Source of the DNA: Anaerohalosphaeraceae bacterium
GTDB taxonomy: Bacteria > Planctomycetota > Phycisphaerae > Sedimentisphaerales > Anaerohalosphaeraceae
Assembly: GCA_037479115.1 (NCBI GenBank)
Contig: JBBFLK010000006.1
Span: forward strand, 1 to 64,000
DNA length: 64,000 bases
Reading direction: 5' to 3'
Part shown: positions 1 through 4,349 of the stretch, one piece after another
Numbering within the stretch: the stretch's first letter is position 1
How the letters are laid out: each line of letters starts with the position of its first letter
Notes under the pieces: generated by a model
What the model saw: only the letters and a program-made list of their open reading frames with translations
What the model was told of the DNA's origin: nothing
Database searches by the model: none
Made by a program: the position numbers and the translations under genes

Positions 1-68
1 GTAGCTCAATTGGATAGAGCATCGGTCTTCGGAACCGAGGGTTGGGGGTTCGAGTCCCTCCAGACGCA
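1..68 (+). tRNA. tRNA-Arg(TCG), 5' end cut by window edge
   Basis: The window begins at tRNA base 7; the first six bases lie outside. The D arm (GCTC/GAGC), the anticodon stem TCGGT/ACCGA (22-26/34-38) around loop CTTCGGA, and the T arm GGGGG/CCCTC around TTCGAGT are all visible. The 3' acceptor strand CAGACGC plus discriminator A ends at 68. Bases 29-31 give anticodon TCG (Arg). CCA is not encoded. The 3' part from base 15 is the left attachment site of the integrated element, which regenerates the tRNA 3' end, so the gene stays intact. The integrase gene overlaps it on the opposite strand. Confidence 0.93.
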
Positions 69-1568
69 TGGAGTTTTCAGTTGTGCAGAATGCGTCAAAA
101 AAGGGGTTTCTAAGCATTCTAACGCATTTTCTGATTTTTTATTTCGTCCGACTGTGTGTGCAAATCTGTGCTTACTTGTGCAGGATTTTGCAGGTCGAAT
201 CAGTGCTTTTTCATATACCATTTTTGGGCCGCCATCTGTGCCGGTTTTGAGGGCCGCTGTTTCGGATTCCCAGTCCAAAGAGGGAAGATTTTCGACTGCG
301 GCTGCCTGGTGTTCCGCTCGGGTGTGTGTGTAAATATCCAGCGTCATTGCCGCTGTGGAATGCCGCAGCAGGGCTTGAGCGGTCTTAATGTCCGTTCCGG
401 ATTCCACCAAAAAGGTCGCAAATGTATGCCTCAAACTGTGGAAATCGACTTTCCCCTGGCTTGTTTGGACGGCCAGAAACTCTGATTCCATCCGCCGCCG
501 GTATTCTGCGGGATCGTCTCGGGCCGCTTCAATCCATTCCTGGCGGGCTGCGGTCAGATCGGCCTTGAGCATATCGGCCGTATGGTAGCCGGTCAGATGA
601 AACGCCGGGGCCGTCGGCAATTTGTTCTTTAGGTGTTCCTTCAGCAAAGCCATTGTGGCCGTCCGAATGGGCAGGAAAGCCCCTTTTTTTGTTTTGGTAT
701 GCTCCGGTTCAACCCGAACCAAAAGCCGCTCAAAATCGAAATTGGAGCGTTTCAGAGAGCGGATTTCGTTCCTTCGCAGGCCGGTTTCCAGGGCCAACCG
801 ATAGACCAGATAACGTTCGGGCCCGCTCATCCCGTACTGTACCCCTGCTGCCCGCTTGGTATAGTCCAGCAGATAAGCGGCCTCCTCTCGGGTCAGGGCG
901 CGCCGTTTGTTCGAAACGACAGCCCCTCTGAAAGACAGAATCTCCAGCGGATTGCCGGCCAGCCGTCCCATTTTCCTCAACCATCGCGTAAATTGCTTGC
1001 AGGCTCGGATGTAGTGCCGTTTGGACAAGGGCGACAAGGGCTGCTTGGTTTCGACCTTCTCCATCCTGCCGGTCTTTGGATTTTTCCGGCTCACAACCGC
1101 CCGCAGCCGCTCAATCGTCGCCTGGGTCTTATCTGCTGTTATATCCGGCAAATAGGAAAACCCCGCCGCCTGAAAAACCCTCCATACCCGAGCGGCCTGC
1201 TGGTTGGCCTGTTCGGGTGAAATCCCGCCGGCAAGGATATGATTTTTCCACTCCTCCAGGTGCTCCCGCAGCGGAACCCCTGCGGCAACCAACCCACCCG
1301 GCAGCAAATCCCACTGGGCCAGTTTGTGCCGCAGGCGGGCCGGCAGGCCGTCCAGCCAGTCGGAAACGTCCGGCGGGAAAAAACCGCTCTTTCGGCAGCC
1401 GACCGCTTCCAGCAGGTGCCGCTGAAGTTTTTCGGCCTGCGTTTTGTCCGTTCCGGCGGCAATCGTGTGCAGCCGGCCGTAGTGATCAGCAAAGGTGATA
1501 TACCAGGAACGGGATATTTGCACACGCCCCGTGAGCGGATTGCGCCGCCGTCTTTTGTGAACAGCCAT
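6..1568 (-). CDS. tyrosine site-specific integrase, truncated at attL
   Basis: Tyrosine recombinase of 520 aa that should integrate and excise the element at tRNA-Arg. The start at 1568 is chosen for its strong Shine-Dalgarno (GGAGG, 7 nt upstream); the longer frame to 1652 lacks one. An N-terminal Arg-rich arm (MAVHKRRRRNPLTGR) and a core-binding region (about 100-240) precede the catalytic domain. Catalytic residues by motif: Arg265 (TGLRRNE), a Lys near 294, His377 and Arg380 (HSLRHT), His403 (LLRHS) and Tyr413 (DIYTH). Residues 501-518 are encoded by the att core, that is by antisense tRNA, and the protein then ends Ser-Asn-stop. In the excised circle the frame would continue into the 4295-4140 segment, giving 569 aa. 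Confidence 0.95.
   Translation of the reverse strand: MAVHKRRRRNPLTGRVQISRSWYITFADHYGRLHTIAAGTDKTQAEKLQRHLLEAVGCRKSGFFPPDVSDWLDGLPARLRHKLAQWDLLPGGLVAAGVPLREHLEEWKNHILAGGISPEQANQQAARVWRVFQAAGFSYLPDITADKTQATIERLRAVVSRKNPKTGRMEKVETKQPLSPLSKRHYIRACKQFTRWLRKMGRLAGNPLEILSFRGAVVSNKRRALTREEAAYLLDYTKRAAGVQYGMSGPERYLVYRLALETGLRRNEIRSLKRSNFDFERLLVRVEPEHTKTKKGAFLPIRTATMALLKEHLKNKLPTAPAFHLTGYHTADMLKADLTAARQEWIEAARDDPAEYRRRMESEFLAVQTSQGKVDFHSLRHTFATFLVESGTDIKTAQALLRHSTAAMTLDIYTHTRAEHQAAAVENLPSLDWESETAALKTGTDGGPKMVYEKALIRPAKSCTSKHRFAHTVGRNKKSENALECLETPFLTHSAQLKTPCVWRDSNPQPSVPKTDALSN
15..68 (+). repeat. attL, 54-bp core within tRNA-Arg
   Basis: Left copy of the direct repeat, running from the D arm to the tRNA 3' end. 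It matches 4296-4349 base for base and diverges immediately outside. Read on the minus strand in the integrase frame it is exactly 18 codons (CVWRDSNPQPSVPKTDAL), here followed by Ser-Asn-stop. Confidence 0.93.
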
Positions 1569-1735
1569 CTTCAGTCCTCCCGAAAAGTGTGCTTCTCTCT
1601 GTAAACCCTGCTGGGCGGTTCCGTCAATCTTTTTTTGCTGCAGCGGGTTCAACAGAGCCTGTTTTTAACGCCTTCTTTCTCGCGAACCCCCCGAAAACAG
1701 GCCTCTCGTTTTACGAACACCGCCCGGGGGATACC

Positions 1736-1996
1736 TTACCTACCCCCCTCCGTCGTTTTCTCTCTGAAGTACCCTCTAACAGCATTCTGGGCAGAATTTG
1801 CAGACGTTTTCCGGTAGGGATACAGCGGACAAGTACTCACTACGCACAAGGCGACTTCCTTACGCTGCCAGTTAACACAATCCAGGCATTTGGCATAAAT
1901 CGCCGCCTTTTTCGACTGCCCCTGCATCGCCTTTTGATAAATCCCCTGATACCGCTTGGGGATTCCCGCAAGATACTCATCAAGCGAAATCGTCAT
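1736..1996 (-). CDS. small four-cysteine phage-type protein
   Basis: An 86-aa protein behind a strong ribosome site (AAGGAG, 8 nt from ATG). The central motif C37-x2-C40-x10-C51-x4-C56, ending CPLYPYR, looks like a compact zinc-binding knuckle. From memory, similar KCLDC...CPLYPYR proteins are common unnamed ORFs in phages and prophages, so I read it as a phage-family component, not a host gene. It lies between the replication initiator and the integrase on the same strand. Its biochemical role is unknown; metal binding is inferred only from the cysteine spacing. Confidence 0.75.
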   Translation of the reverse strand: MTISLDEYLAGIPKRYQGIYQKAMQGQSKKAAIYAKCLDCVNWQRKEVALCVVSTCPLYPYRKTSANSAQNAVRGYFREKTTEGGR

Positions 1997-2029
1997 CTTA
2001 ACATCTCCTTAACATTTAATAAGTATCTC

Positions 2030-3292: not shown

Positions 3293-3316
3293 TGCAGCCG
3301 TTAGGCCTATAACTCA

Positions 3317-3345
3317 ATTATACGTGAGAGATTGGCATGCATAAA
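3317..3345 (-). promoter_or_regulatory. candidate promoter for the AlpA-AlpA-initiator operon
   Basis: A perfect -10 TATAAT (plus-strand ATTATA at 3317-3322) reads toward the AlpA genes. The -35 region (around 3340-3345) is poor, with no TTGACA-like match at 16-18 bp, which fits a promoter needing an activator. Confidence 0.45.
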
Positions 3346-3349
3346 AATT

Positions 3350-4150
3350 TCATTTCGGCCTTGTTCGACCATCTGTCCGCTTCCCCAGATCTACAATCCG
3401 GCTGTTGTAAGCGACTTTGGGTTTGGCCCCCTTCTCTTCTGTGAGAAGGTTATGATACTTTGCCCAGCCTTTAAACTCTTTAATCAACCGGCTAACCGTG
3501 TATTGCTTAAGTGGCCTTTTATATTCTTTCGAAAGCATTTTGGCAATTTCAGATTGGTTATAACCAGATTGATACAACAAATAGGCCTCTCTGGCCTCCT
3601 TCCTCGGTTCCTTCGGCAGTCGCAACGGCTGCTGCTCCTGAGGGACAGTGTTAACGGAGCGGTGGTGCTGAACCGCTTCCTGCAAAACCCTGAGTTGTTC
3701 AATCTTGGGCAGGCGTTCAAAGTCTTTGTAGGACAACCCGATGATTTTCTGAACCGCCAAAGCCAGGACAAAAGGGGATGCAAACTCATTTCCGGTCAGT
3801 TCTTTTGCGGCTCTATGGACAACCAGTTTATCCAGAAACTGAACAACCCCAGCCGGCCCGCCAAAACACTTTTCCAGTTTCTCTAAAATGTGGCTTGGCA
3901 AAGTAATCGGCCCCGGCCATCGGTCTAAGTCGCTATCTGTCAGCGGATATTCGTCTTCGGTTTGCTTCGCAGGAGCAACCCAATACTGCAGGATACCCCC
4001 CTTGGATGGATTCTGCGGTTTGGTTTGTTTCTTTTTCACTTGTCGCAGCCCTCTCGACAAGCCCGGAAAAACTCGGCGCGGCCAGCCAGGCGGGCTTTTC
4101 CTGGTTTTCGGACGCGACCCTATGCCGCGCCGTTTGATTCTATCCGTCAA
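3350..4150 (-). CDS. unknown HTH protein of the integrated element
   Basis: A 266-aa protein I do not recognise. The N-terminus is basic and Pro-rich. Residues about 200-235 (YNQSEIAKMLSKEYK, then TVSRLIKEF) have the spacing of a resolvase/Fis-type helix-turn-helix, so DNA binding is likely. The first start is TTG at 4150, overlapping by 11 bp the end of the displaced integrase tail (stop at 4140). A GTG at codon 42 of this frame (VKKKQ) is an alternative. In the excised circle this gene would lie directly downstream of and overlapping the integrase gene, which supports the reconstructed integrase frame. It could regulate maintenance or packaging; nothing in the sequence decides. Confidence 0.6.
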   Translation of the reverse strand: MTDRIKRRGIGSRPKTRKSPPGWPRRVFPGLSRGLRQVKKKQTKPQNPSKGGILQYWVAPAKQTEDEYPLTDSDLDRWPGPITLPSHILEKLEKCFGGPAGVVQFLDKLVVHRAAKELTGNEFASPFVLALAVQKIIGLSYKDFERLPKIEQLRVLQEAVQHHRSVNTVPQEQQPLRLPKEPRKEAREAYLLYQSGYNQSEIAKMLSKEYKRPLKQYTVSRLIKEFKGWAKYHNLLTEEKGAKPKVAYNSRIVDLGKRTDGRTRPK

Positions 4151-4349
4151 CGCCGGCCAGCGTCAAGATGGCTTTCCGGATATAGTCCGGCAGGGCATCC
4201 CAGACCAAAACCAGCTGCTCCAAATCAGTGCTTTTTCGTGTGCCTTGCGGTTTTTGATTTTCACAAGTGCTTTTATTATCAAGGACTTGCGATTTTAGAG
4301 CATCGGTCTTCGGAACCGAGGGTTGGGGGTTCGAGTCCCTCCAGACGCA
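4140..4349 (-). pseudogene. displaced 3' end of the integrase gene (att core plus 51-codon tail)
   Basis: On the minus strand the attR core encodes the same 18 residues as at attL, in the integrase frame. It then continues with 51 codons ending LPDYIRKAILTLAGVDG and a TAG at 4140. In the integrated state it lacks a proper start; only a TTG right after the carA stop could open it. Joined to the integrase in the circle it restores a 569-aa protein. The tail overlaps the next gene by 11 bp, as expected of a real gene end. I read it as the severed C-terminus, not an independent gene. Confidence 0.7.
4296..4349 (+). repeat. attR, tRNA 3' remnant
   Basis: Right copy of the 54-bp repeat, without the 5' half of the tRNA, so it is not a functional tRNA gene. 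It sits 16 bp beyond the carA stop. On the minus strand the same 18 codons continue here into an open frame of 51 more codons (to 4140) instead of stopping. Confidence 0.93.

Follow-up and report, generated by a model that had tools for sequence, protein, structure and literature searches.

Phage Mx8 of Myxococcus xanthus targets the 3' ends of tRNA-Asp genes, and its Int and IntX forms were reportedly the subject of primary studies by Tojo in 1996 and Magrini in 1999. In this system the change of the integrase C-terminus alters specificity rather than inactivating the enzyme (reviewed in PMC6070905), and Mx8 is mentioned in the Islander paper as well (PMC4383910). In the so-called suicidal integrases of the SSV type (SSV1, pTN3 and pT26-2) the att site lies in the integrase gene, which is split by integration, and such division of an integrase gene was described in 2021 as exclusively archaeal (PMC8371274). 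Mycobacteriophage BPs is a further example of attP placed in a coding frame, where integration removes 33 C-terminal residues and the behaviour of the protein changes (PMC4557955). No earlier description of such an arrangement from Planctomycetota was found in the literature searched, by which its absence is not proven.

The window analysed here is a stretch of 64,000 nucleotides from an Anaerohalosphaeraceae bacterium (Planctomycetota), with an integrated element of about 4.2 kb (69-4295) close to its beginning (Table 1). The element is bounded by an identical 54-bp repeat, the att core of attL and attR, which corresponds to the 3' portion of a tRNA-Arg(TCG) gene. The integrase gene (int) starts with an ATG at 1568, passes through the tRNA core in antisense and terminates as ...TDAL-Ser-Asn-stop (stop at 6-8); on reading the sequence, this last part is supplied by the tRNA, the antisense of the conserved D-arm being Ser-Asn-stop. 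When the core is joined to position 4295 and downwards, the frame remains open to a stop at 4140-4142, thus the rebuilt attP gives an integrase of 569 aa, of which the detached tail makes up 51 aa (KSQVLDNKSTCENQKPQGTRKSTDLEQLVLVWDALPDYIRKAILTLAGVDG). The product is a tyrosine recombinase, as PF00589 matches residues 253-447 of a 548-aa frame, and the catalytic motifs TGLRRNE, HSLRHTF and IYTH (R, HxxR and Y) can be read in it. A preliminary description had claimed that attP lies inside the int reading frame, that the integrase ends with Ser-Asn-stop right after the attL core, that integration replaces the last 51 residues by two, and that the tail alone is lost while the catalytic residues are retained. 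All of this has been borne out by the core in frame at both ends, the frame across the junction and the intact catalytic domain of the 520-aa form. The anatomy of the arrangement is near certain; what we infer from it is the consequence of the tail exchange for integrase function, including the change of activity or stability with state that the preliminary description proposed.

The tRNA-Arg gene at attL was not detected by ARAGORN in the window because the first base of the window is also that of its contig (C6) and falls inside the tRNA. In one congener (G117) an integrase 94% identical to that of the window is located at a complete tRNA-Arg gene with the same layout and core, and a detached tail closely similar to the window tail is found 4.3 kb away. 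In another congener (G119) the site is empty, the intact tRNA-Arg gene standing directly beside carA with neither element nor tail. Owing to this pair of an occupied and an empty site, insertion is demonstrated by comparison, beyond the evidence of the repeat alone.

Table 1. Features of the integrated element in the window
Feature	Position	Strand	Evidence
tRNA-Arg(TCG), 5' end lost at contig end, attL in 3' part	1..68	+	complete copy L035 7037-7110; empty site L181
attL core, 54 bp, 18 in-frame int codons, antisense of tRNA-Arg	15..68	.	exact repeat
integrated int (tyrosine recombinase) of 520 aa, Ser-Asn-stop from tRNA 5' half	6..1568	-	PF00589 E=2.5e-23
putative P-arm site in int, GAAAAAGCACT on int strand, ~133 bp from core	195..215	.	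repeat comparison
86-aa ORF without Pfam match	1736..1996	-	ORF list, Pfam
261-aa ORF, winged-HTH-like segment (HTH_Crp_2, below Pfam cut-off)	2030..2815	-	Pfam
81-aa HTH_17/AlpA-like protein, candidate excisionase-type factor	2805..3050	-	PF12728 E=1.4e-14, PF05930
second small HTH protein (AlpA/MerR-like), ~55 aa	3055..3222	-	sequence reading; relatives found
266-aa ORF immediately after tail; TTG start (4150) would give 11-bp overlap with tail end	3350..4150	-	without confident family
detached int tail, 51 codons and stop, with the conserved hairpin motif behind the P' linker	4140..4295	-	frame junction, tail profile
putative P'-arm site in tail linker, GAAAAAGCACT on int strand, 58 bp from core	4222..4240	.	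repeat comparison
attR core, 54 bp	4296..4349	.	exact repeat

The main ORFs of the element are all placed on one strand, and in the circle the end of the tail overlaps the next ORF at 4140-4150, therefore int would, on integration, also lose its coupling to the genes beyond the tail. The overlap had been taken earlier as the mark of a true gene end; it is indeed present, but as evidence of that kind it is weak because the TTG start codon is uncertain. The neighbouring carA gene (4350-5484) is transcribed toward attR, therefore, once the element is integrated, transcription from the host could run into the detached tail and the genes of the element. Outside the element the window also contains a direct repeat of 242 nt with 78% identity (18948-19189 and 20909-21150).

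The same arrangement recurs across the Planctomycetota. Contigs on which integrase and tail share a strand were taken as pairs, and the 3' region of int was compared with the sequence preceding the tail in search of a shared core. A common core of 22-67 bp, at various tRNA genes, was present in 13 of the 14 pairs tested first, and the frames agreed in all 13; the remaining pair (G127) was rejected, its ends having no common core and belonging to different elements. With two further pairs in frame agreement, 15 of 15 elements with both ends are now available (cores of 20-67 bp, several tRNA genes), an outcome with a chance probability of 1/3^15, about 7e-8, before the absence of stops is counted. 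All three antisense frames of the tRNA are in use among them, and in the integrated integrases of other elements the frame extends into host DNA, with a chimeric end of 2-78 aa past the core. HTH_17/AlpA-like neighbours occur in nine of the 15 paired elements, including the window, which has two of them; the 81-aa protein has relatives in the 8 others.

With a three-sequence tail profile, 136 of the 161 genomes of the order gave a match at E<=5 and about 68 at E<=1e-3; almost all of these matches lie in short open frames rather than in integrases. In a sample of 392 genomes from across the Planctomycetota, a broader profile detected the tail in 88 (E<=1e-3), and the named tail loci belong nearly all to this phylum. 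A tRNA T-arm lies 50-330 bp upstream of 85 of 133 distinct tails (75 antisense, 10 sense) versus 2 of 133 control stretches, and in 69 of the 75 antisense cases it falls within the tail's own frame. The contig scans used alignment A3, alignment A2 being too diverse; since the A3 patterns contain WPxLP[EG]HIK, ascertainment accounts for part of the motif conservation seen among L121-L178. Conservation is claimed from the 15 paired elements and from the profile searches. Several tails (L048 at 3230-3452 in minus-strand coordinates, L197, L201, L211, L212, L213, L218 and L219) are preceded in frame by a tRNA in the sense direction (GSIPAAST, RGFDSHRLHH), and L219 has also an integrase with a tRNA-sense peptide at its end. 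These loci point to a second class, reversed in orientation, in which int would occupy the opposite end of the element. In L105 (2419-3771) the tail frame continues into an apparent subunit of a hydrogenase or NADH dehydrogenase, with 451 aa open, which is either an assembly join or a real chimera.

Tail and integrase distances are weakly correlated (Mantel r=0.28, p about 0.03). The comparison of integrase length among relatives, proposed in the preliminary description, was made on a tree of 43 integrases, where 34 are long and 9 short, the latter scattered and stopping directly after the catalytic domain without any extension. It follows that the long state is usual in this sample and that the tail is dispensable in some lineages, and thus not essential to recombination as such. 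Homologous integrases do not, then, all end at the catalytic domain: tails recur phylum-wide, in frame with integrases. Related integrases ending just past the catalytic domain, without tRNA overlap or tail, are those of L009, L010, L014, L019, L024, L029, L030 and L031, two of which end ...TGTND-stop.

The last ~30 residues of the tail follow the pattern [D/E]LxxIVxxWPxLPEHIKAAIxALV, in which the Trp-x-x-Leu-Pro core is nearly constant. The median dN/dS of the motif is 0.17 (576 pairs; pN 0.29 versus pS 0.72) and the signal vanishes in a shifted-frame control; the pairs were picked by protein identity, which biases the ratio downward, and the control answers part of this bias. These values support selection on the motif at the level of the encoded protein. 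In the predicted structure of a natural protein (L130) a region disordered over residues ~104-236 is followed by a two-helix hairpin (252-263 and 266-283; pLDDT 76-97), and the same hairpin is predicted for the window tail. Searches of Pfam, PHROGs and NCBIfam gave no match to the tail, and none of significance was obtained among PDB sequences. The linker between core and motif contains repeated DNA, for example AGCTTACAAACCAGCTTACAAA, which is read in more than one frame, and AGTTGACACC. The two sides of the core have repeats in common, in the same orientation: those in int mostly precede the core by 130-200 bp and those in the tail linker follow it by about 40-95 bp; they measure 10-23 bp in the clearer cases, and in 5 of the 15 pairs they are short or equalled by at least 3% of shuffles. 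The repeat of the window is GAAAAAGCACT. Such repeats are putative arm-type integrase sites, so the int frame apparently encloses the P arm, the core and the P' arm, with a protein domain after them.

Three natural copies show the int-core-tail frame without any reconstruction. In L199 (G460) a single frame of 390 aa unites the tail with the catalytic motifs and with GEGGIRTPGG, a stretch of antisense tRNA; in L130 the joined frame leads from the middle of the catalytic domain through the tRNA antisense to the tail; L112 (G122) is a decayed joined copy. L130 was considered as a circular contig and rejected, its other end being chromosomal with biotin-synthesis genes on reading of the sequence. 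In L199 a second tyrosine-recombinase-like gene (1644-2724) begins directly after the intact joined integrase. No tail-bearing relative was found in viral contigs, phage records or plasmid records searched for circular or free viral copies, so that the free form is evidenced only by the rare joined genes in genome contigs.

At the level of sequence it is demonstrated that recombination divides and restores the gene and that the tail is conserved as a protein. The explanation preferred here, which is probably correct, is that a tRNA-targeting element with attP wholly inside int encodes a long integrase in its free circle and exchanges isoforms on integration, by which the role of the enzyme is altered. 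The order within the int frame would be P-arm repeat, core, P'-arm repeat and conserved tail, and the free circle would encode the 569-aa integrase with a small terminal domain of helical-hairpin type. Integration into tRNA-Arg divides int, the chromosome providing a stop after two residues, and the detached tail would stay silent at attR until excision rebuilds the full gene. As the tail is joined in the circle and detached on integration, the C-terminus of the integrase would signal whether the element is free or integrated. The tail may work in the integration phase, in synapsis or in contact with a partner, and its loss may silence or redirect the integrase; the tail-less form, probably together with an AlpA-like factor, would be kept for excision or be nearly inactive. 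Small HTH_17/AlpA-like proteins represent the fold class of many excision factors, and excision by the tail-less form is plausible because of their presence in nine of the 15 paired elements. Against the preferred explanation stand the short relatives that have no extension and the weakness of the correlation between tail and integrase distances. Put forward tentatively, as a possibility about as open to doubt as to acceptance, is the extension to the phylum: tRNA-targeting elements of Planctomycetota may set the direction of recombination by reversible covalent exchange of a C-terminal integrase domain, with the whole attP, arms included, in int and the hairpin present only in the free element. 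If this is true, the directionality switch is built into the recombination site itself.

The tail could instead be required for all activity, integration killing the integrase and excision needing a full-length integrase in trans, as has been argued for the archaeal suicidal integrases (PMC8371274). A conserved tail that is predicted to fold, and the variability of the chimeric ends after integration, agree with such self-inactivation; it is nevertheless unlikely, as the catalytic domain and its residues are intact, unlike in SSV, short tail-less relatives exist and candidate excision factors are retained. The logic of BPs, where C-terminal residues are lost on integration (PMC4557955), would make the tail a degradation tag and the free-form integrase short-lived, as is the integration-dependent repressor of that phage. 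This is improbable because tail ends vary: 133 tails have no common C-terminal dipeptide and are not ssrA-like, and the conserved part is a predicted folded hairpin with its Trp ~23 residues from the end.

Still less probable is that the extension is a by-product of attP at the int end, with conserved DNA arm sites and the tail peptide as a passenger. Linker motifs read in different frames and linker repeats in common with the int arm are what would be expected from it, however the motif beyond the linker holds one frame whichever tRNA frame precedes, and its dN/dS points to a selected protein. Least probable is an independent small gene at attR that has nothing to do with int: the tail does form an open frame of its own there, but the frames agree in all 15 pairs, natural fusions exist and 57 of 69 tails contain no in-frame ATG.

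Planctomycetota hold many divided integrases with a conserved tail, which makes them a testable system for the choice of recombination direction; the orphan open frames of 70-130 aa beside tRNA fragments in planctomycete genomes are explained; and the tail serves as an exact marker of the distal end (attR) of an element.

SSV and the mycobacteriophage, named as precedents in the preliminary description, are apt but not the closest, phage Mx8 being more direct. As in the SSV type, the integrase gene is divided by integration; however, the SSV split detaches the catalytic C-terminal part, whereas in the present case the large piece retains every catalytic residue, the catalytic domain is intact in the 520-aa form and PF16795 scores 16.6 bits against a cut-off of 27. 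With BPs the element has in common attP within a coding frame and a C-terminal loss on integration, but the split gene of BPs is the repressor and its lost tail a degradation tag, a type that the tail ends do not resemble, and here the integrase is divided. Mx8 likewise has a tyrosine integrase with the attP core in int, an exchanged C-terminus and a retained catalytic domain, and this architecture is found in the window int, with the core inside the gene, a frame open in both the free and the integrated state and the catalytic part kept. The Mx8 C-terminus has no match to the tail profile and Mx8 gives a trace of 4.4 bits with the integrase profile, so the element works like Mx8 and a common lineage with it is not supported. 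In contrast to Mx8, the tail module is conserved here across a whole phylum, at many tRNA sites. The arrangement is the Mx8 principle, new in its conserved detachable tail domain found phylum-wide.
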